Part shown: in pieces, positions 2,106 to 44,057 of the stretch | Position numbering within the stretch: position 1 is the stretch's first letter | Layout: each line of letters opens with the position of its first letter | Assembly: GCA_039924845.1 (NCBI GenBank) | Contig: JBDTAC010000088.1 | Span: 1 to 64,000 of the forward strand | DNA from: Bacteroidia bacterium | GTDB lineage: Bacteria > Bacteroidota > Bacteroidia > DATLTG01 | Length of the DNA stretch: 64,000 bases | Reading direction: 5' to 3' | Made by a program: the position numbers and the translations under genes | The notes under the pieces: generated by a model | Seen by the model: the letters and a program-made list of their open reading frames with translations, nothing else | Databases searched by the model: none | Told to the model about the DNA's origin: nothing

Positions 2106-2218
2106 TTTCTTGAATATTTATATTTCTCGCAAAGATAACCGAAAAATTATTTTTTCGGAAGATATAAAAGCGTGCAAAAAACTGTCTTGAAAAATTATTT
2201 TTTCGAGCGGTAAAACTA

Positions 2219-3811: not shown

Positions 3812-4624
3812 TTATTGTTGAACAATAGTGTTACCAGCTAAAGTAACAGCTGCAATTCTTGCTAATAATCGACCATCAACTGTGGCACCTGTTTGCAATG
3901 AAATGGATTGATTTGCCATAATGGTTCCTTTAAAAACAGACGTTGTTCCCAAAGTGGCAGAAGTACCTACTTGCCAAAAAATATTAGATGCAACTGCTCC
4001 ACCACTTAAAATTACTTTCCGACCAGATGATGTTGTCAATGTAGATGCTATTTGTATAATAAATACAGCATTAGCATTACCATTTGCATTAAAAGTTAAA
4101 TCGCCTGATGATATTTGAAGTGAACCACTTGACTTATAAAGACCTGGTGTAAGAGTCAAGCCACCAATATTACCAGCTAAGAGCACCATATCTGTGCAGG
4201 TTCTTCCTGCTGCATTATTATAGGCTGTTGTTAAATCACCTTTTGCTGTTGTCAAATTTGCTGGTGTAGGAACTCCATAATCTGCTGCGTACAACGACCC
4301 AGTTACTTGAGATGATGTTGCAGCTGCTGCTCCTGTGGGGTGAACCAAGGAAAATCCAGTAAGGAATGATCCTGCTGCAGGGCTTAAGCCAATATTTCCT
4401 GTAATGGCAGAAGTTGGAACATTGGAGACTTTCGATCCGGCCAAGATGACATAATTCCCAGCAGAAGCCAGATTTACAGGAAGCTGTACTGTAGTTTGAG
4501 TAGTGATTACGTTTGTATTAATTGTTCCTCCTGTTGGAGCCGGCGAATTGGTATCTTTCTTACATCCAGCAATTAAAACAACCGATATTATTGCAAGGCT
4601 TGTAAATAGGTTTTTAGTTTTCAT
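3812..4624 (-). CDS. DUF3494 ice-binding-like lipoprotein
   Basis: A 270-residue lipoprotein with a single DUF3494 domain. The signal peptide ends in the lipobox LIAGC (Cys21), so it should be anchored in a membrane, probably the outer one. A short Pro/Thr/Asn linker leads to the domain at about residues 48-268. Family hallmarks are an ASAGNYVILAGS start, TGNIGLSP (the GDVG-like turn), a DL..AYN helix, LTPGLYKSSGSL, and A.VFIIQI, then a terminal GRLLARIAAVTLAGN strand. DUF3494 proteins form a beta-solenoid; several bind ice, others act as adhesins. It is transcribed alone from a TGTAA-type promoter and shares a nearly identical leader with the gene at 18182-19789. Confidence 0.88.
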   Translation of the reverse strand: MKTKNLFTSLAIISVVLIAGCKKDTNSPAPTGGTINTNVITTQTTVQLPVNLASAGNYVILAGSKVSNVPTSAITGNIGLSPAAGSFLTGFSLVHPTGAAAATSSQVTGSLYAADYGVPTPANLTTAKGDLTTAYNNAAGRTCTDMVLLAGNIGGLTLTPGLYKSSGSLQISSGDLTFNANGNANAVFIIQIASTLTTSSGRKVILSGGAVASNIFWQVGTSATLGTTSVFKGTIMANQSISLQTGATVDGRLLARIAAVTLAGNTIVQQ

Positions 4625-12720: not shown

Positions 12721-13662
12721 TTAAAAATATCTAGGAGAATGTATTTGTTTGTCGCTTGGAAATATAAAATCGTATCTCAATACAATTTCATTACTTCCCT
12801 GGTTATACCGGGATGTTGCTAATCCAAATGACCAATCGTATGAATAGCCAATATGAAACTGTTCTGTAATATTTACACCAACTAAAGCGCCAAAAGAATC
12901 GCCAGTGCGAAACATGGCACCAAGCAATAATTTTTTCATGATAACGAAAGAAGCTGTAAGATCAGCCTGAGCAGGAGCGCCAGCCGTTACTTTCAGAAAA
13001 GCTGTTGGTTTAAACCCAAGGTTATCGCTAACTTTAAGCATTGCTCCTGTAATCAGAAAATAAGTTCTTTGCTCGTTTCCTACCAATGTACTTCCATCTG
13101 GCTGATTTATTACAGAATAATTATTCTGTAATAAATCAGGTACTGAAATACCTGCATAAAAGCTTTCTCTGTAATAATATGCGCCAAAACCAAAATTAGG
13201 TGTAACGTGGCTATTGATATTATTTTGAAATACGACATCATTTTGTTGATCCAGATTCAGGGTATTCAGGTTCGCCTGAAACATATCTGCACCAGCACTT
13301 ATACCAAGTGCTAATTTGGACACTGCATTCATTTTCATGATGTATGCAAAATCAACTGCAAACGATGTATTATTTATAGGACCTATTTTATCATTCAATA
13401 CAGACAAGCCTATGCCAAGATGCTCGTTTTGCAAAGGTGCATGTATGGTTAATGTTTGGGTCGTTGGCGCACCACTAAAACCAACCCATTGGTCACGGGC
13501 GAGTGCCGTTACGGTCAAAGCCTCTCTGCTTCCAGCATAGGCCGGGTTAATAGCTAAGGTATTATACATATAATGGGTAAACAAAGGAGCTTGTTGTGCA
13601 CGAACTGTTATATTTCCTAAGGCTAACACCAATACAGGAATTATTTTTTTTAGTGTTTTCAT
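12721..13662 (-). CDS. PorP/SprF-family type IX secretion membrane protein
   Basis: A 313-residue outer-membrane beta-barrel protein. The signal peptide ends VRAQ (about 22). The family hallmark PLFTHYMYNTLAINPAYAGS follows directly. Later come LGIGLSVLNDKIGP, GFGAYYY and the C-terminal IGYSYDWS...NEIVLRYDF. PorP/SprF proteins help deliver and hold T9SS substrates with type B sorting domains at the cell surface. The gene lies 36 bp after the large substrate gene (13699-16485) and 20 bp before the PorE-like gene, which is the classical arrangement. Confidence 0.93.
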   Translation of the reverse strand: MKTLKKIIPVLVLALGNITVRAQQAPLFTHYMYNTLAINPAYAGSREALTVTALARDQWVGFSGAPTTQTLTIHAPLQNEHLGIGLSVLNDKIGPINNTSFAVDFAYIMKMNAVSKLALGISAGADMFQANLNTLNLDQQNDVVFQNNINSHVTPNFGFGAYYYRESFYAGISVPDLLQNNYSVINQPDGSTLVGNEQRTYFLITGAMLKVSDNLGFKPTAFLKVTAGAPAQADLTASFVIMKKLLLGAMFRTGDSFGALVGVNITEQFHIGYSYDWSFGLATSRYNQGSNEIVLRYDFIFPSDKQIHSPRYF

Positions 13663-13698: not shown

Positions 13699-16485
13699 TT
13701 ATTTATTGAGATAAATAGTTCCTTTAAAAATGGTTGATCCATCGCCCAAATCAAGTATATAGAAGTATGTTCCAACTGGTAATACATCTCCTCCAACTCT
13801 CAATCCTATGGCACATCTGCCATCCCAGTTGTTTTGATAAGGACTCGCTTCAAATACTTTATCTCCCCAACGATTATAAATCTCAAATTTATTTTTAGGA
13901 TAATATTCAATTCCTCTGATTACAAACAAATCATTTATTCCGTCACCATTAGGAGAGAAGCCCTCAGGAATATTAAAATCGGTTGGAAAAGTTTCGACAG
14001 TAGAAGTATTGTTTGAGAGATTTCCGTCTGCTTGATTACCAGAAACAAACACTGTATTAACATAATTTCCCCCTGCAATCACCTTAGCAGTAATTGTTAA
14101 GGTATCAGATGTTCCACCTGGTATCGTTCCGATTGTCCATAAGCCAGTTGAAGAACTATAACTTCCAGATGTTGTTGTTGATGAAACATAGGCATATCCA
14201 CTTTGCAATGCTTCATTAACTACTACTCCTGTTGCATTTCCTAAACTATTATTTGTAACAACAATAGTAAATACGACCGTATGTCCGATAAAAGGGGTTG
14301 TAGTACTTACTGTTTTGACAACACTCAAATCAACATTACAGTTGTTTACTACAACTATAGTAGTAGAAGGCGTAGATGTACAACCACCATCTGTTACTGT
14401 TAAAGAATAGGTGCCTGCATCTGATAATGCTACTGGATTAATTACTGGATTTTGTAAAGATGATAAATAACCGTTTGAGCCTGTCCATGAATATGTTGCT
14501 CCGACTACAGTTGAAGCTGTTAACATAATTGAGTCGCCCGAACAAACAGGAGAGTTACTTCCGGCTATAGCAATTGGTAGCGGATTAACTGTAAGCGATA
14601 CATTTATTGAAGTATCATTTCCGCAAGCTCCACTAACAATAACATTATAGTTCAATGCAGCATCCAAAACAGTAGCAGGATTAATTGTAAGAGTTGCAGA
14701 AGTTGCACCTGAAATATTTCCACCATTTATTAAATTTACAGTTCCTTTTCTCCACTGATAAGTGAGTGCTCCTCCCGTTGCTGTTACAGAGAATGTAATT
14801 GAATCTCCTACGCAAGCAATTTTATTATTTGGCTGAGATGTAATAATGGTAGCAGGATTAACTGTAAGCGATACATTTATTGAAGTATCATTTGGCGGTG
14901 TTGATCCGCTAACAATAACATTATAGTTCAATGCAGCATCCAAAACAGTAGCAGGATTAATTGTAAGAGTTGCAGAAGTTGCACCTGAAATATTTCCTCC
15001 GTTTATTAAATTTACAGTTCCTTTTCTCCATTGATACGTTAAACCTGTTCCTGTTGCAGTAACTGAAAAGCTTATAGAATCACCGGCACATACAATTTGA
15101 TTAACCGGTTGTGTTGTAATAATAGGAGGAGCAGCAATTACACAAGTACCCACAGGAACCAACACGTGGGTTGAAAAAGTATTTATGGCACCCACAGATG
15201 TAAGCACTCTTCCTTCTATTTGAACTCCTGTTTTTAAGGTGATGGCTCCTGTTGAAACAATTGTTCCTTTAAAAACGGAAAAATCATTTATAGTAGCTGC
15301 ACCACTAATTTTCCAAAATACATTTTTTGCCTGTGCTCCATTTTGTAATACAACAGTTGAATATGTACTGGTAGAAAATGCTCCATTTACCTGGAGAACA
15401 AATACAGCAGCAGGATCTCCTTCTGCATTTAAAAAGAGAGTATCTGTAAATGTTACGGCAGAATTCATAACATAAGTATGTGGTGTAAGAACGAGACTAT
15501 ATCCAAAATTGGCAGGATATAACAATTCGATATCACTCGGTAATAAATTCAAATAATTATAAGCAGGCCCGATATCAGTTGCACATGCATTTGTAGAACC
15601 ATCAGGACTCGAATGAATAGTGCCTGTTACTTTCAAAGGGTCATAACCAAGTGTTGACCCTAAATTAGTTCCTACATCTCCAGTAACAAATGAAGCAAAA
15701 TCATCTGTAACAGGTCCGTCAGCAGAAAATATTGCATAACATGCTGCTGAAGCAAGATTCGGAGGTATGGGTCCAGTAAGCGTAGGGCTTCCACAACCAA
15801 TGGGTGTAAAAGCGACAAGGCCTGTATTAACACTGATAGCACCTGTTGTAGAAAGTGCTCTTCCTTCCAGCAAAACACCTGTAGCGATATTAATAGCAGC
15901 ATTATGAACTATAATATTTCCTCTCATTTTAGTTCCGGTAGCAATATTTACTACGCCTTCTACCAGCCAAAATACATTGCACGCCTTTGCTCCGTTAATT
16001 AATTTAACTTCAGAAGCAGGTCCTGTAGAAAAGTCAGATCCTAATTGGAATAAGAAATAAGCATTCGGGTTTCCTCCACCATCTAAAGTAAGTACACCTA
16101 CAAGTGAAGGAGTAGCAGGTAATGTAATGGAATATATTCCAGGAGATAAAGTTTCTCCTCCCAATAATGGAACATGTGGTGTAGCTGGTCCCTGCGCACT
16201 TAGGTTAAGATAAACCGTATTCAAATCAGCAACTGCTGTTGCCGTAACACCATCTCCAGCGCGCATTACGCCATCTACATTTCCAAAACCGGAATTGCCA
16301 CCTATTTGTGAACCTACATCTCCTGTAATGTGAGAGTTTATTCCCGCACCAGTGTGAGTAATTGCTCCATTTGAGGAAAAAATAACAAACTGACTGACAG
16401 TTCCTAAGCTGGGTGCTTGTCCAAAATTTACTTTTGGAAAACACAAAGTCACAGCTGTTATTATTAGTAATAATTTATTTTTCAT
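13699..16485 (-). CDS. T9SS surface protein with two DUF3494 domains, Ig repeats and type B sorting domain
   Basis: A 928-residue secreted protein. Order: signal peptide (1-22), DUF3494 domain 1 (about 24-228), DUF3494 domain 2 (240-445), two nearly identical Ig-like domains (455-632), a third Ig/PKD-like domain (634-715), a DUF11-type domain (717-835) and a type B sorting domain (840-928, PEGFSPNGDGINDLFVIRG; NRWGDKVFE). Both DUF3494 units show the GDVG turn and the VFWxVxG..NI strand. It is probably an ice-binding-like or adhesive surface protein exported by T9SS with the PorP/SprF protein encoded next to it. It is the first gene of the operon. Confidence 0.92.
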   Translation of the reverse strand: MKNKLLLIITAVTLCFPKVNFGQAPSLGTVSQFVIFSSNGAITHTGAGINSHITGDVGSQIGGNSGFGNVDGVMRAGDGVTATAVADLNTVYLNLSAQGPATPHVPLLGGETLSPGIYSITLPATPSLVGVLTLDGGGNPNAYFLFQLGSDFSTGPASEVKLINGAKACNVFWLVEGVVNIATGTKMRGNIIVHNAAINIATGVLLEGRALSTTGAISVNTGLVAFTPIGCGSPTLTGPIPPNLASAACYAIFSADGPVTDDFASFVTGDVGTNLGSTLGYDPLKVTGTIHSSPDGSTNACATDIGPAYNYLNLLPSDIELLYPANFGYSLVLTPHTYVMNSAVTFTDTLFLNAEGDPAAVFVLQVNGAFSTSTYSTVVLQNGAQAKNVFWKISGAATINDFSVFKGTIVSTGAITLKTGVQIEGRVLTSVGAINTFSTHVLVPVGTCVIAAPPIITTQPVNQIVCAGDSISFSVTATGTGLTYQWRKGTVNLINGGNISGATSATLTINPATVLDAALNYNVIVSGSTPPNDTSINVSLTVNPATIITSQPNNKIACVGDSITFSVTATGGALTYQWRKGTVNLINGGNISGATSATLTINPATVLDAALNYNVIVSGACGNDTSINVSLTVNPLPIAIAGSNSPVCSGDSIMLTASTVVGATYSWTGSNGYLSSLQNPVINPVALSDAGTYSLTVTDGGCTSTPSTTIVVVNNCNVDLSVVKTVSTTTPFIGHTVVFTIVVTNNSLGNATGVVVNEALQSGYAYVSSTTTSGSYSSSTGLWTIGTIPGGTSDTLTITAKVIAGGNYVNTVFVSGNQADGNLSNNTSTVETFPTDFNIPEGFSPNGDGINDLFVIRGIEYYPKNKFEIYNRWGDKVFEASPYQNNWDGRCAIGLRVGGDVLPVGTYFYILDLGDGSTIFKGTIYLNK
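14582..15128 (-). repeat. Two nearly identical Ig-domain repeats inside 13699-16485
   Basis: The blocks at 14582-14853 and 14859-15128 encode the same Ig-like domain, with matching positions 276 bp (92 codons) apart. The core (matching from 14635 and from 14911) is nearly identical in DNA, pointing to recent duplication. Confidence 0.85.
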
Positions 16486-16588: not shown

Positions 16589-18074
16589 ATTTCAATTCTT
16601 TCATTATCTTATTTATATCAATACCTAAGCCTTTGGAAATTGCCATTCCAAGCTTTGTATCCAAGCGAAAAAAATAACACAATTGCCGGTTGATTATTAA
16701 TTCCTTTTTTTCTCCGTCAATTCGACTCATGGAATCAACAATGTTTGAAACTAAATTATGTCTGTCGTAATCATTCATAGCATTATTGAATAAGCATCCA
16801 GCTTGTGTGTAATGATCATCTTCACCTTTCCCGTTTCTGTCATACCAATCAGCAATAGTATTATCTAAAGTCATTGCGAATTCTTTGTATTTTTTATCAG
16901 CATAGATAGTATCAAAACGATTTGGCGAATAATTTGGGGCATCTTCTCCATTGTTGCCCATTGTCATTGCACCATCGCGTTCGTAATTAGCAATCATATA
17001 AGGACATTTATTTACTGGAATCTGTTCGTAATTTACTCCCAAACGATAACGATGTGCATCGGGATAAGTAAGTAAGCGCCCTTGTAATAATTTATCGGGA
17101 GAGTAACTAATGCCATCTACAATATGTGCAGGTGCAAATGCCGATTGCTCTACTTCGGCAAAATAATTTTTTGGAATTTGATTTAATTCCATTGATCCTA
17201 CCTCAATCAATGGATATGTTGCATGAGGCCAAACTTTTGTAATGTCAAATGGATTGAAAGAAAGGTTATTCGCTTGCTCGTTTGTCATCACTTGTATTTG
17301 TAATTTCCATTTTGGAAAATTCTTTCTGTCAATGGCTTCCACCATATCGCGTTGTGCAAAATCAAGATCTTTACTTTTCATTTCAGCCGCTTCATCATTG
17401 GTGAAGTTTTTTATTCCTTGCACTGTTTTAAAATGAAACTTCACCCATATTTTTTCATTGTTTTCATTTATCATTGAGAATGTATGTGAGCCATATCCAT
17501 TCATGTGTCTATGTCCATAAGGCGTTCCTCTATCACTCATCAAAATCAAAACCTGATGTAAACTTTCTGGATTTAAGCTAAAATAATCCCACATCATAGT
17601 TGGATTTTTGCAATTCGTTCGCGGATCTCTCTTTTGAGTATGAATAAAATCGCTAAATTTTTTGGGATCTTTTATAAAAAAAACAGGAGTATTGTTTCCC
17701 ACTAAATCCCAATTACCATCTTCTGTATAAAACTTTACAGCAAAACCTCTTGGATCTCTTTCGCTATCAGCGCTGCCTTTTTCACCACCCACCATCGAAA
17801 AACGAGCGAACACTTTTGTTTGTTTTCCTATTGTATTAAATAGTTTCGCTTTTGTATATTTTGAAATATCATTTGTAACCGTAAATGTGCCAAATACCCC
17901 CGTTCCCTTAGCGTGAACAACCCTTTCGGGAATTCGCTCACGGTTGAAGTGAGCCATTTTTTCATGAAGAATATAATCTTGTAAAAGCAATGGACCTCGA
18001 ACTCCTACACTCATTGTGTTTTCATCTTCGGTATAAGGTCTGCCCGATGCAGTAGTTAATTTTTTGTTTTTCAT
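16560..18074 (-). CDS. katA: Catalase (monofunctional heme)
   Basis: Breaks down hydrogen peroxide. At 504 residues it is a small-subunit clade catalase. The distal His54 (RVVHAKGTG) and Asn127 (DLVGNNTP) are present. The proximal heme-ligand Tyr lies in GRLLTYPDAHRYRLG. The conserved FARFSMVGGEKGSADSERDPRG and ANYERDGAM segments are intact. The protein has no signal peptide. The gene stands between a DUF3494 gene and the surface operon. Its upstream gap (18075-18181) is filled by a bidirectional hairpin, so its own promoter must be close to the start or overlap that hairpin. Confidence 0.97.
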   Translation of the reverse strand: MKNKKLTTASGRPYTEDENTMSVGVRGPLLLQDYILHEKMAHFNRERIPERVVHAKGTGVFGTFTVTNDISKYTKAKLFNTIGKQTKVFARFSMVGGEKGSADSERDPRGFAVKFYTEDGNWDLVGNNTPVFFIKDPKKFSDFIHTQKRDPRTNCKNPTMMWDYFSLNPESLHQVLILMSDRGTPYGHRHMNGYGSHTFSMINENNEKIWVKFHFKTVQGIKNFTNDEAAEMKSKDLDFAQRDMVEAIDRKNFPKWKLQIQVMTNEQANNLSFNPFDITKVWPHATYPLIEVGSMELNQIPKNYFAEVEQSAFAPAHIVDGISYSPDKLLQGRLLTYPDAHRYRLGVNYEQIPVNKCPYMIANYERDGAMTMGNNGEDAPNYSPNRFDTIYADKKYKEFAMTLDNTIADWYDRNGKGEDDHYTQAGCLFNNAMNDYDRHNLVSNIVDSMSRIDGEKKELIINRQLCYFFRLDTKLGMAISKGLGIDINKIMKELKCVNDVTTSF

Positions 18075-18181: not shown

Positions 18182-19789
18182 TTACTGTAATGAAATCAGC
18201 TTGCCTGATTGTATTACAGTATTGTCTTGAATCACTTTATAAAAGTAAATACCAGAAGGAAGTGAATTAGTTCCAATTATGGTGTTTGAATTATTAATAA
18301 GTGTATTCATTACTTCAACACCAAGAACATTATACATTATAAATTCACATTTATTGATTTGTGTGGAATTGTTTTTAATGTTAATTTGGTTGCTAAAAGG
18401 ATTAGGAAAAACACTAATCAATTCTTTTTTATCAACTACAGGAACGCCAGTTGCTGTACAAATAGGAGCCATTGTAGTGCTAATTGAATCAGTAGTAAAA
18501 GACCCGCTCGTTGTATAAACTCTTCCGTTAATTGTAGCTTCTTTGTCTAAACTAACGGCACCGTTATTACAAACTATTGTTCCATTGAAATCCGAATAAT
18601 TATTTATTTTTACTGCACCATTCACTACCCAAAATACATTTTTTGATTGTGTTCCGTTAATCAAAATAACTTTTGAATAAGTGCTTGTTGCAAGTGCTCC
18701 ATTTATCTTGATAACAAATACCGCATTCGCATTACTTTCCGCATTCAAATAAAGAGAATCTGTAAATGTTGTTGCGGCATTCATAATATAAGTATGTGGT
18801 GTTAAAACTAAATTCCTTCCAAACTGTACAGGATACAACAACTCAATATCAGCAGGTAATGTGTTCAAATAAGTATAAACATTCCCCAAATCTGTTGCAC
18901 ATATTGCTGTAGATGCGTCAGGAGTTGAATGAATTGTCCCTGTTACAAATAAGGGAGTAAAGCCAGTAGTTAAACCTACATTTGTTCCAACATCCCCCAT
19001 AACATGTGTAACGCCAGTATTTGTAAGTGATCCGTTACCAGAAAACAACGCATAACAAGCAGTTGAAGCTAAGTTAGGATAGGCAGGACCCGTTAGTAAA
19101 GGACTTCCGCAACCAATCGGCGTATAAGCAAGTACTCCGTCAACAGTAACAGAGCCTGCAGTAGAAAGAGCTCTACCTTCAAGAGTATCGCCCGTATTCA
19201 TATTAATTGCCGCATTATTCGCAACTATAGTTCCTTTCATAAAAGTTCCTGCCGCCATACTTACCAAGCCTTCCACTTTCCAATATACATTACATGCCTT
19301 AGCACCGTTAATCAATTTTACTTTTGAATCAGCAGAGGTTGAAAAAGAGCCTTGAATTTGAAAAATAAATACAGCATTCGGATTTCCTTGTGCATTCAAA
19401 TAAAGATTTAAGTTAAGTGTTGTTGCCGCGGAAATAGAATACACACCAGCAGTAAGCGTGTCTCCGTTACCTAAAAGAGGTGCAGGAAAAAAAGTTGGAG
19501 TGGTAGCATTTAACTGATTATACGCATTCAGCAAATCAGTTGAACATTGCGCACTTGCTGCATCTCCATCATGCATAACACCATTCACATTTCCAAACCC
19601 AGTACTCGATCCGTTGTTCGTACCTACATTTCCTGTAATCTGTGAAATACCCGAATTAGTTACAGCGCCATTTGTTGTGAAGAGTTCAAAATCTGCTGCG
19701 GTACCGAGATTAATAGCTTGTCCGAAATTAATTATTGGAATTAAAAGCAGAGCAACTACAATTAATTTAGTTAGTATTTTAGTTTTCAT
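18182..19789 (-). CDS. Two-domain DUF3494 protein with T9SS type A sorting domain
   Basis: A 535-residue secreted protein: signal peptide (1-25, ending NFGQA), DUF3494 domain 1 (about 26-232), DUF3494 domain 2 (240-445) and a type A sorting domain (454-535, VFPNPFSNQINIKNN and GIYFYKVIQDN) that directs it through the type IX system to the surface or medium. The two domains resemble those of 13699-16485, but there are no Ig or DUF11 spacers. Ice binding or adhesion is inferred from the family. It has its own promoter, with the leader duplicated at 4638-4747. Confidence 0.92.
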   Translation of the reverse strand: MKTKILTKLIVVALLLIPIINFGQAINLGTAADFELFTTNGAVTNSGISQITGNVGTNNGSSTGFGNVNGVMHDGDAASAQCSTDLLNAYNQLNATTPTFFPAPLLGNGDTLTAGVYSISAATTLNLNLYLNAQGNPNAVFIFQIQGSFSTSADSKVKLINGAKACNVYWKVEGLVSMAAGTFMKGTIVANNAAINMNTGDTLEGRALSTAGSVTVDGVLAYTPIGCGSPLLTGPAYPNLASTACYALFSGNGSLTNTGVTHVMGDVGTNVGLTTGFTPLFVTGTIHSTPDASTAICATDLGNVYTYLNTLPADIELLYPVQFGRNLVLTPHTYIMNAATTFTDSLYLNAESNANAVFVIKINGALATSTYSKVILINGTQSKNVFWVVNGAVKINNYSDFNGTIVCNNGAVSLDKEATINGRVYTTSGSFTTDSISTTMAPICTATGVPVVDKKELISVFPNPFSNQINIKNNSTQINKCEFIMYNVLGVEVMNTLINNSNTIIGTNSLPSGIYFYKVIQDNTVIQSGKLISLQ

Positions 19790-27237: not shown

Positions 27238-27344
27238 TGTTAGCTTTATTTTTGATTAAGTTATTTGATATAAATTATATTTCGACTTTATTTATCCCAA
27301 TCATTTGGACTGTTCTTTATGCTACAGGGATTCTTTACACACTA

Positions 27345-32728: not shown

Positions 32729-32759
32729 TATTCAAAAAATTATTTTTTTGAATATCAAT
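32724..32759 (+). terminator. Terminator after the acetyltransferase gene
   Basis: Arms ATTGATATTCAAAAAA and mirror form a 16-bp stem closing a TTAT-like centre; TTTTTAT follows. It contains an iterated palindrome core. Confidence 0.8.
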
Positions 32760-39542: not shown

Positions 39543-40772
39543 ATGATGTATTTGAAAAATATTTTTTTGAAAAATTATTTTTCTTACGGCATTTTTTTAG
39601 CAATCATTTTGCGATTGTGTTTTTGCTTTTTCGAACCTTCTCTTTTTAGCAATTTTACGCGTTTTGTGTGGGACGGAAAATTATTTTCGCACGGCATTAA
39701 TCCATTTATTTATTTGCCGAGCTTTCTCATAAACACTGGAAATTCTGTTACTGCCGGCGTAGATTATGATTTTTTTTCTTTGCTTAATTCGCCCAATAAT
39801 TACACGTCTTACGGACCTTTTTTACAATATTTTTTTACTTTCGCAGAAAAAATATTTGGCACGAACACGTTTGAAAAAATAATTTTTTGGCGCTTGTTAA
39901 TTGCCACCGCAGAAATCGGCAGCGTGTTTTTTATGTTGAAAATATTGCACTTTTTCCAACTCTCCGAGAAAAATATTTTCTGGTATTTACTCAACCCTCT
40001 CGTTATTTTTGAGTTGTACTCAAATGTACAGTTAGAAATAATTCCTATTTTTTTTTTAATAGTTTCGATGTGGCTTTTCCTTTGTCAAAAAAATATTTTC
40101 TCAGCATTGTCTTTGGCTTTAGCTGCGGCTTGTAATCTACTTTTCTTACTGCCATTACTCTTTTTATTGCCGCGTCTAAATATTCAAAAAATAATTATTT
40201 ATTTGACACTCTTTTTTGCACTCTTAGCAATTTTATTTTTTCCTTTTTTAGCAGATGGAAAATTAATTCATTTACTCCGGTTCAATGCAACAGGGTTTTT
40301 CGCTATTGGAGAATTTAACAGCGCGAGTTACAAAATAGTTTATTGGTTACAGGGCTTGCTAACAAACAGTATTACATCTTTTCAAACAGGATTAATTTTA
40401 TTCGAAATGGGCGCTTTGTCTTTGCTTTTTTTCACCTTCAATCAACAAGAAAAAAAGGATGTTTCGGTTTTGAAAAATATTTTTTTCGGCTTTCTTATTT
40501 GCCTTATTTTTTCCGCAGCTATTCGTCCTGCCGATTTTATTTTACTGTTGGCATTGAGCGTTTTTATTCCGTATCGTTTTGTTTTTGTATGGTCACTTTT
40601 TGCGTTATTATCCTATCTTTCGTACAACTATTTTCCGGTGCACGACAATCTTATTTTGCTGATTACCGAATACCTCAGCGTAAGTGGAATCCTTTTTTAT
40701 GAGTGGAAAAAAGAGCGTCAAAAAAATATTTTTTCAAGCCAAGTACCCAGCACTTTTTCAAACAAAAAATAA
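39543..40772 (+). CDS. GT87/GT-C-type integral membrane glycosyltransferase
   Basis: A 409-residue protein with about ten membrane helices, including an N-terminal loop WDGKLFSHGINPFIYLP that resembles the first periplasmic loop of polyprenol-phosphate-mannose-dependent transferases. YTSYGPFLQYFF, LLNPLVIFELYSNVQLE and PADFILLLAL follow. It probably transfers a sugar outside the membrane. The reading frame is full of iterated palindromes (KNIFF, KNYF, EKIIF), and its last 55 bp overlap the opposite-strand gene. Confidence 0.75.
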   Translation: MMYLKNIFLKNYFSYGIFLAIILRLCFCFFEPSLFSNFTRFVWDGKLFSHGINPFIYLPSFLINTGNSVTAGVDYDFFSLLNSPNNYTSYGPFLQYFFTFAEKIFGTNTFEKIIFWRLLIATAEIGSVFFMLKILHFFQLSEKNIFWYLLNPLVIFELYSNVQLEIIPIFFLIVSMWLFLCQKNIFSALSLALAAACNLLFLLPLLFLLPRLNIQKIIIYLTLFFALLAILFFPFLADGKLIHLLRFNATGFFAIGEFNSASYKIVYWLQGLLTNSITSFQTGLILFEMGALSLLFFTFNQQEKKDVSVLKNIFFGFLICLIFSAAIRPADFILLLALSVFIPYRFVFVWSLFALLSYLSYNYFPVHDNLILLITEYLSVSGILFYEWKKERQKNIFSSQVPSTFSNKK

Positions 40773-41803
40773 TTTTCAGAGGACGTAAAACCTTTTGTTT
40801 TATAAGCTTCGAGAATCGCATTTTGTAAATTAAATTTATTTTGTTCGACCGAAAAAATAATTTTTTGAGCGGATAAATAATTCGCCAAATATTCTTGCTC
40901 CGTTTGTCCAGGCGTTGGAATTAAAACAGCTTTTTTCTCAAGTCGTGCTAAATCCATAATTGTAGAATATCCCGAACGACTGATAATTATTTCGGAAGCC
41001 GAAATATAGCTTTGCATTTCTTCAGAATTCAAATGTGAAAAGATTTTTACATTTTCTGAAAGATTTATTTTCTCAGTGCTTTCAGGGATTCCGCGAACAA
41101 CAATTGCTTTTAGAGAAGTATTTTTTAATTGTTCAAAAATTAGTTGCTCGAAAGTTGTTCTTTGCGGTTCCGGACCAGAAATAATTACCATTACATCGTA
41201 CTGAAAAATTATTTTTTCAGAAGGCTTTTTTTCAAATCGTGAAAGCGGTCCGATAAAATAAATATTCGGAAGTAAATCAATTCCGTGCGACAAATTTCCT
41301 GATAAATTATTTTTTTCTGCCACATCCGGAATCCAACATTCATCGTATTTTTGGAGGTATGAAAAAATAATTTTTCGAAGTGCTTTTTTTCCGAAAGGAG
41401 TTTGAATAGTTAATTGATGTGTGATAAAAACGCTTGGAATTTTTTTCGTCCACAAACCGTAACGATTATCTGAAATAACAGCGTCAATGCGGTTTTTAAA
41501 AATTATTTTTTCGAGTTGTGCGTGTTCTGATTTTATTTTTCTGATTATTTTAGGAATCTGCGAAAGCATTTTCAAAACCATAAAATCTTTGTCAGGATAC
41601 GTAATTTCATAACCTGAAAAACGAATAAATTCTAAATCGGGAAATTCTTTTTTCAATAATTCCAGCGGAGCTTTATCGGCAGCAATAATTACTCCCATGT
41701 TTTTTTGTTGCAAAAAACGAATAATCGGAATGCAACGCGTTGCGTGTCCAAGTCCCCAATCGAGCGGACAAACAAGAATTCGTTTTTTAGAAATTGGCTG
41801 CAA
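40718..41803 (-). CDS. Glycosyltransferase (GT28-like), iterated-palindrome rich
   Basis: About 361 residues with start TTG at 41803, giving MQPISKKRILVCPLDWGLGHATR, which matches the N-terminus expected for this family (a nucleotide-binding GGLGHAT-type loop). A TTG at 41887 would add 28 residues from the dispersed repeat. The C-terminal half has the donor-binding segment ISRSGYSTIMDLARLEKKAVLIPTPGQTEQEYLA. Palindrome copies encode KIIF or similar seven or eight times. It may work with the convergent membrane transferase. Confidence 0.75.
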   Translation of the reverse strand: MQPISKKRILVCPLDWGLGHATRCIPIIRFLQQKNMGVIIAADKAPLELLKKEFPDLEFIRFSGYEITYPDKDFMVLKMLSQIPKIIRKIKSEHAQLEKIIFKNRIDAVISDNRYGLWTKKIPSVFITHQLTIQTPFGKKALRKIIFSYLQKYDECWIPDVAEKNNLSGNLSHGIDLLPNIYFIGPLSRFEKKPSEKIIFQYDVMVIISGPEPQRTTFEQLIFEQLKNTSLKAIVVRGIPESTEKINLSENVKIFSHLNSEEMQSYISASEIIISRSGYSTIMDLARLEKKAVLIPTPGQTEQEYLANYLSAQKIIFSVEQNKFNLQNAILEAYKTKGFTSSENYFLFEKVLGTWLEKIFF

Positions 41804-41829
41804 GAAAAATAATTTTTCAAACGAAAGTA

Positions 41830-43997: not shown

Positions 43998-44004
43998 CAA
44001 AAAG

Positions 44005-44036
44005 AAAGGCTTTCAGAATATATTCTGAAAGCCTTT
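44005..44036. terminator. Bidirectional terminator between SDR and TonB receptor genes
   Basis: Perfect palindrome with AAAGGCTTTCAGAATA arms, located between two convergent genes. Confidence 0.85.
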
Positions 44037-44057
44037 CCCCAAAAATAAAATTTTAAC

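Follow-up and report, generated by a model that had tools for sequence, protein, structure and literature searches.

In some genomes a single palindrome, HIP1, is present in thousands of copies, and the reason for this abundance has been a long-standing question. DNA-uptake sequences are another repeated class; the core of the Haemophilus influenzae uptake sequence (USS) is counted at 1,465 copies in the accessible part of PMC7811141. Among proteins that coil DNA, p6 of phage phi29 is described, in the available passages of PMC10899789 and PMC4974454, as contacting DNA every 12 bp and winding it into a right-handed superhelix with a turn of about 63 bp. Here we describe an AT-rich palindrome in 64,000 nucleotides of a Bacteroidia bacterium (assembly GCA_039924845.1, contig JBDTAC010000088.1, positions 1 to 64,000), hereafter called the window. 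An earlier note had reported about a dozen copies of this palindrome in two convergent genes at 39543-41803. The local clustering proved real, but the note had missed the genome-wide extent of the motif. The copies centre on a longer dyad and are flanked on both sides by phased A/T tracts, in genes as well as between them.

Genome-wide distribution and consensus

Copies were scored as cores of A4-8, then TAA, TTA, TA or TTAA, then T4-8, with a total length of at least 11 bp; densities across the genome were counted on cores of at least 12 bp. The genome that contains the window has 2.66 Mb in 101 contigs and is 99.1% complete. About 30% of it, a non-random part with rough gene calls, was sampled for densities in two sets of contigs, a first of 398.7 kb and a later one of 337.4 kb that served as the held-out set. 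The genomes used for comparison came from other orders of the class, which were the nearest relatives available, and the analysis of the motif covers one species. The class carries the PorP/SprF and CHU_C hallmark genes of Bacteroidota type.

The first set held 387 cores (0.97 per kb) and the held-out set 367 (1.09 per kb), whereas five relatives with similar GC content had 0.013-0.052 per kb in the stretches compared. Extrapolation to the whole genome gave about 2,600-2,900 copies. The form GAAAAATWATTTTTC occurred at 93 sites in the genome, its reversed control at none, and each of 59 relatives had 0-5 sites. The strict 22-mer TTYRAAAAATTATTTTTTYRAA had 296 occurrences (155 on one strand, 141 on the other), against a single one among 394 other class genomes. 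The motif thus resembles the HIP class in being a palindrome over-represented throughout a genome, genes included.

Alignment of the copies revealed a 22-bp dyad, TTYRAAAAA-N4-TTTTTYRAA, in which N4 was mostly TTAT or ATAA, followed by TTAA and ATAT. The gap between the arms was nearly fixed. With matches counted over both strands, a gap of four was seen 152 times, three 28 times and two twice, and gaps of one, five or six did not occur; the held-out contigs gave 67 matches with a gap of four, six with three, and none with 0-2 or 5-8. The pyrimidine-purine (YR) steps of the two arms were equal (TG/TG, CA/CA or CG/CG), which a perfect palindrome would require, in 29 of 129 well-formed copies, against about 38 expected if the arms were independent. 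Copy density was 2.9-4.0 per kb in all four orientations of intergenic DNA and 0.52 per kb within genes. The independent arms and the similar density in every intergenic orientation argue for a DNA site rather than an RNA hairpin. To judge from this pattern, a symmetric protein would recognise the site in its double-stranded form.

The 22-base form was also present in at least 118 stretches of other genomes from many phyla. We examined 80 of these loci and found 102 cores and 19 mirrored ones in them, with densities of at most 0.63 per kb, the maximum being at 22% GC; we read these matches as chance and rejected a motif family spread over other phyla. The 24-base form had no match in a scan of other genomes' contigs, from which the organism's own records were possibly excluded. 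Five viral contigs had one copy apiece and no further copy. In the open-licence literature we found no prior report of an iterated palindrome in Bacteroidetes, although an earlier report elsewhere is possible, and none on an overrepresented palindrome together with the nucleoid or on a genome-wide, overrepresented palindromic motif in flavobacteria.

Phased A/T tracts around the dyad

The GC content around the copies rose and fell in a regular manner. At 11-14, 17-20, 22-25, 29-32, 35-38 and 43-46 bp from the dyad it was 0.52, 0.10, 0.37, 0.21, 0.35 and 0.24 between genes, with controls near 0.33, and 0.52, 0.19, 0.40, 0.27, 0.37 and 0.35 in genes. The rise at ±11-14 had z scores of 13.5 between genes and 12.1 in genes. 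The first dip, at ±17-20, was deep both between genes (control 0.325, z -15.5) and in genes (control 0.332, z -8.8), and that at ±29-32 was evident in both settings (z -8.3 and -4.0). The dips consisted of homopolymer tracts of A or T, with AAA or TTT in 54% of cases at the 17-bp offset between genes. The letter used on the left side did not predict that on the right.

Isolated copies, which had no neighbour within 100 bp, were fitted over three ranges; two gave a period of 12.7-12.8 bp and the third 12.4 bp, with an amplitude of 14-17 against null maxima of 5-6. The A/T peaks of these copies lay at 5.5-6, 18.3, 31 and 44 bp, which places the half-sites of the dyad on the same lattice as the flank tracts. 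The held-out contigs reproduced the dips (GC 0.165 at ±17-20 and 0.276 at ±29-32, far flank 0.344) and the period of 12.7 bp (bootstrap 12.0-13.5).

The phased flanks belong to the genuine copies and are absent around look-alike sequences. At ±17-20 the ratio of GC to the local value was 0.42 for genuine copies, compared with 0.99 for look-alikes in relatives and 0.78 for those in other very AT-rich genomes; mirrored cores gave 0.92, and other tracts of A or T (W) in this genome 0.90. We also considered the lattice as a general A/T periodicity unrelated to the motif, and rejected this. The genome-wide A/T period was 11.1 bp here and 9.8-11.7 bp in relatives, and it was unchanged when the sites were masked; intergenic autocorrelation farther than 60 bp from the sites had no clear 12-13 bp signal. 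The lattice therefore belongs to the sites. The A+T autocorrelation of uncalled sequence had spikes at lags 21, 42 and 63, here and in relatives G063+G132 and G086, which perhaps reflect missed genes or short repeats.

Neighbouring dyads preferred a distance of about 48-49 bp. There were 24 pairs at 47-51.5 bp, against seven at 40-46.5 bp and three at 52-58.5 bp; the same ranges held 12, four and six pairs in the held-out set.

Copies in the convergent gene pair

The stretch from 39543 to 41803 contained 13 cores (Table 1), in keeping with the dozen or so first reported; order-2 Markov simulations, run 500 times for this stretch, had a mean of 0.44 and a maximum of three. When codons were shuffled synonymously 500 times, with the amino acids kept, the plus-strand gene had eight cores against 3.5 (maximum seven) and the minus-strand gene six against 3.0 (maximum six), the overlap copy being counted in both. 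This pair was the densest among sampled genes of at least 700 bp (the next had 4.4 copies per kb), a ranking to be read with the fact that the window was chosen because of these two genes.

The genes had been described as two glycosyltransferases. Scans of the Pfam and NCBIfam libraries at chosen limits bear this out for the minus-strand gene, which matched PF04101 and PF13528 (TIGR00661 fell below its cut-off), and not for the plus-strand gene, whose protein matched no model of either library at those limits; 35 of 149 genomes of the class, including the one it comes from, have a match to this protein. The minus-strand open reading frame (ORF) is open to 41887; homologues start near residue 33 of that reading, and the likely start is the TTG at 41803. 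Among the peptides listed earlier, KIIF, EKIIF and KNIFF were present, along with KNIF and KNYF, but KNNF was absent, the nearest being KNNL from a degenerate copy. As the ORFs define it, the gene overlap is 55 bp (40718-40772), and it does contain a copy, first given as 40722-40737, whose core we place as in Table 1. The two stop codons of the pair (40718-40720 and 40770-40772) both lie within or border motif copies, and the motif may have determined where both convergent proteins end.

Table 1. Motif copies, host genes and other features of the window
Feature	Position	Strand	Remarks
Host gene, 409-aa protein	39543-40772	+	8 copies, 6.5 per kb
Copy	39555-39568		Core AAAAATATTTTTTT; plus-strand gene, encodes KNIFL
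Copy	39570-39582		Encodes KNYFS; dyad 14.5 bp from dyad of preceding copy
Short copy	39677-39687		Encodes GKLFS in WDGKLFSHGINPF; no gaps against 19 of the 19 homologues shown (e.g. WDGRLLSHGINPF)
Copy	39874-39888		Encodes EKIIF; gap-free columns
Short copy	39969-39979		Encodes KNIF; gap-free columns
Copy	40087-40099		Encodes QKNIF; no inserted residue against homologues
Copy	40473-40486		Encodes KNIFF
Host gene, glycosyltransferase	40718-41803	-	PF04101 C-terminal domain; 6.0 copies per kb
Copy in 55-bp overlap	40720-40734		Minus-strand gene ends here, with its TGA stop (40718-40720, minus strand) at the edge of the copy
Copy	40764-40776		Supplies the TAA (40770-40772) that ends the plus-strand gene
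Copy	40852-40866		Minus-strand gene, encodes QKIIFS; gap-free columns
Copy	41204-41217		Encodes EKIIF; loop of variable length among homologues, insertion possible at this copy
Copy	41362-41375		Encodes RKIIFS; gap-free columns
Copy	41498-41511		Encodes EKIIF against KKIIK and similar in homologues; gap-free columns
14th copy, outside 39543-41803	41805-41817		Just upstream of the likely TTG start (41803) of the minus-strand gene
Intergenic pair of copies	2142-2203		Dyads 48 bp apart, example of the preferred spacing
Intergenic copy with long dyad	32734-32749		atattcAAAAAATTATTTTTTTgaatat, example
Copy-poor stretch	3609-24996		Some 21 kb in which one short copy occurs (17160-17172); genes for three ice-binding proteins (3815-4624, 13702-16485, 18185-19789), a catalase and PorP/SprF

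Origin of the copies and imprint on proteins

The earlier note had proposed that the motif spread into genes by an active process or was kept for a strong selective reason, and had suggested alignment with motif-free orthologues to tell insertion from substitution. We aligned both host genes with motif-free homologues, the best of which had 59% identity to the minus-strand gene and 27-36% to the plus-strand gene (twenty best matches, self excluded). Most copies in both genes fell in gap-free columns, for example WDGKLFSHGINPF against WDGRLLSHGINPF and LEKIIFKNRIDA against LKTIIKEKNIDA. The test for insertion was weak at the two N-terminal copies, the overlap copy and 41204-41217, which lie at gene ends or in loops.

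The same held across the sampled genes, where 45 in-gene copies could be aligned to the best homologue. In 41 of them no residue was missing from the homologue. Such residues accompanied the other four (8.9%, against 4.3% at random positions), and a gap on the query side was likewise seen at four of 45 copies, against 1.3% at random positions. Active insertion as the route into genes was thus not supported by the alignments, and the copies coincided mostly with substitutions. The outcome that the note had named as refuting its proposal, identical residues at these positions in palindrome-free relatives, was not seen; motif residues were 27% identical to the homologue, compared with 47% for positions picked at random in the genes concerned. 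Positions that are present in these relatives with other residues indicate substitution, not insertion. On these alignments, the copies arise by point substitution and alter the protein sequence.

The imprint on the proteome was marked. The called genes, 133,770 residues in all, contained K[NI][NIY]F 156 times and its reverse 12 times, whereas four relatives had 5/4, 15/12, 4/8 and 6/2. Motif codons were used at 41 of 44 KNNF (17.8 expected from codon usage), 29 of 38 KIIF (15.0), 29 of 34 KNIF (11.9) and 16 of 17 KNYF (6.1), and at three of 11 KLFF (2.2). All genes together held 224 cores; ten synonymous shuffles yielded 101 (standard deviation 6), and five shuffles of codon order 16. Codon choice and amino-acid sequence are both moulded by the motif. 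The other half of the proposal, that there is a strong reason to have the motif, whether selection or a biased process, is supported by this skew in codons and amino acids and by the phased flanks that accompany the motif.

Copy-poor stretches and other features

The copy-poor stretch at 3609-24996 may have entered the genome recently, in which case the motif would mark how long DNA has been resident. Further stretches of 6.6-11 kb were free of copies in the sampled contigs L010 (3869-13951), L013 (2768-10291), L017 (3047-14004) and L021 (13042-19645). Two long perfect palindromes in the window, at 13102-13139 (arm 19) and 44004-44037 (arm 17), have unrelated sequence and are probably ordinary terminators. 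Near 27300 the gene direction changes from mostly minus to mostly plus, and the cumulative GC skew turns there.

Discussion

We give about an even chance to the reading that the palindromes are nucleation sites for a putative dimeric architectural protein that wraps DNA, each within a site of about 60-90 bp repeated throughout the genome. The 22-bp dyad forms the centre of this site, with GC-rich DNA at about 5 bp beyond each arm and then A/T tracts every 12.7 bp or so. A dyad of fixed gap with independent half-sites suggests a protein dimer, presumably a dedicated one that recognises both half-sites, and the regular tracts on both sides suggest further minor-groove contacts over about 60-90 bp. 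Additional subunits may dock on these phased, narrow-grooved tracts, so that the DNA would be bent or wrapped around a protein core. If the tracts face one protein surface, the path would be right-handed because 12.7 bp exceeds the helical repeat of 10.5 bp, with one turn per about 61 bp (1/10.5 - 1/12.7), near the 63 bp of the phi29 p6 coil; across the bootstrap range the computed pitch is 47-84 bp per turn. Such copies would serve to organise the chromosome. Point substitution may create them wherever a sequence comes near the motif, and they would then be kept in genes against coding constraint, the convergent pair being a dense spot of the genome-wide pattern. The site, its copy number, the fixed gap, the independent arms, the origin by substitution and the phased flanks are observations, from which a protein, wrapping, its handedness and a role in chromosome organisation are inferred. 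It is a more tentative and somewhat doubtful proposition that the thousands of sites and the 12.7-bp lattice mark a new kind of right-handed wrapping protein whose demand for sites reshapes proteins.

Several observations weigh against a wrapping protein. The period was derived from two to four tracts per arm, and one wider held-out fit range gave 12.2 bp. The tract at ±44 was clear only between genes (GC 0.241, z -6.1); it was not seen in genes (0.354), nor at isolated copies of the held-out set (0.331 against 0.344). The phase test on pair distances had a best value of 3.57, equal to the largest of 1000 null sets (3.57). The host-gene pair is denser than even intergenic DNA, for which the model gives no account, and the strict consensus differs from p6, which is reported to recognise bendability and not sequence. 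Copies might have been expected to avoid conserved genes, but this was rejected, as their density does not fall with conservation: it was 0.57 per kb in genes of at least 55% identity, 0.47 at 40-55%, 0.58 below 40% and 0.56 in genes with no match. No binding protein was identified among the known candidates. The genome has three HU/IHF genes, an ordinary number. Consensus sites of Lrp/AsnC proteins resemble this dyad; no PF01037 gene was found in this genome, compared with at least one in 14 of 29 relatives, and the family was rejected as the binder. An archaeal-type histone was rejected likewise, since the search for this fold (PF00808), positive in three control archaea, gave none in 20 genomes including this one, other bacterial histones not being sought. 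A search for AT-hooks had no match in this genome and none in the controls, so it has no bearing on proteins of that kind.

Among other explanations, the one that deserves most attention is a DNA-uptake sequence, as in Pasteurellaceae (USS) and Neisseriaceae (DUS), whereby competent cells take up motif-bearing fragments by preference and the motif then builds up across the genome through recombination. We regard this as unlikely on balance, yet with an appreciable chance. About one copy per kb, the presence in genes, the substitution origin and the copy-free stretches would all fit, and the available part of PMC7811141 describes the H. influenzae USS as a core accompanied by A/T tracts, which are rigid and bent in shape and thereby favour uptake. 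The genome does have ComEC, but so did all 20 genomes searched, so this gene says nothing special here. A search for secretins (PF00263) gave none in this genome, which is 99.1% complete, whereas six of 19 relatives have one, and the known uptake pore of the type IV pilus is thus not evident. Uptake also would not predict the 48-bp preference of pairs, and dyad symmetry would be unexpected: to our knowledge, none of the described uptake sequences is a dyad flanked by tracts on each side. Rather improbable, in our judgement, is accumulation driven by repair, as for cyanobacterial HIP1, in which a bias of methylation- or nick-directed repair converts near-matches with no selected function. The HIP1 model, as far as the accessible passages of PMC4390886 go, predicts about one site per 1000 nt, which is near the density here, but repair bias at a short target is not expected to shape a lattice of either A or T out to ±31 bp.

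Two further possibilities have very little probability. The motif could act in RNA as a terminator or processing hairpin, and in 12 of 201 intergenic copies (two of 137 in genes) at least five of the next six positions do pair. However, the arms vary independently with no compensatory variation, intergenic regions have much the same density whether convergent, tandem or divergent, and copies lie inside genes; we rejected a hairpin for most copies on the independent arms and the orientation-neutral density. Slighter still is the likelihood of a mobile short palindromic insertion element, like the Rickettsia palindromic elements or REP sequences. The dispersal in and between genes and the four insertion-like copies would suit it, but the lack of extra residues at the other 41 and the mostly gap-free host-gene alignments led us to reject it.

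Whichever process is at work, the case adds a second phylum and a much longer, AT-rich site to the iterated palindromes. The phased tracts around copies, in genes too, are new in that the passages on HIP1 available to us do not have them, and they turn a statistical curiosity into a testable claim on DNA wrapping or uptake. A DNA-level demand visibly shapes the proteome, one tetrapeptide class being 13 times commoner than its reverse, and this is relevant to the reading of lineage-specific residues in protein alignments.

Compared with described systems, the motif is like HIP1 (GCGATCGC) in being palindromic, lineage-specific, present at about one copy per kb in and between genes, and made without insertion. 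It differs in being AT-rich, 22 bp long, with a 4-bp gap, degenerate YR steps and phased flank tracts, and in belonging to another phylum; it is neither GCGATCGC nor another GC-rich palindrome of cyanobacteria. It shares with USS and DUS a similar copy density, the presence in genes and formation by substitution, and the USS has A/T tracts beside its core. The motif here is instead a dyad with tracts on both sides, in a genome where no secretin was found. Lrp/AsnC proteins are octamers that have been proposed to wrap DNA, and LrpC is credited with right-handed wrapping in a title cited in the available part of PMC8481266; no gene of this family was found in our genome. The RemA ring also makes repeated AT-rich contacts, but the 7-bp regions that it protects repeat at 10-bp intervals, according to the same part of PMC8481266, compared with the tract period of about 12.7 bp here. 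The geometry is like that of p6, with A/T minor-groove contacts every 12 bp in phi29 and 11 bp in GA-1 and a coil near 63 bp per turn; this is a likeness of geometry only, not of membership, as p6 is a phage protein with no fixed sequence. Against its contacts every 11-12 bp stand tracts, read from sequence and not themselves contacts, with periods of 12.4-12.8 bp (held-out 12.2-12.7, bootstrap 12.0-13.5). By this analogy we think that the sites may nucleate a p6-like wrapped complex with a right-handed path, built by a putative protein that is unrelated to p6 or unrecognised as such.

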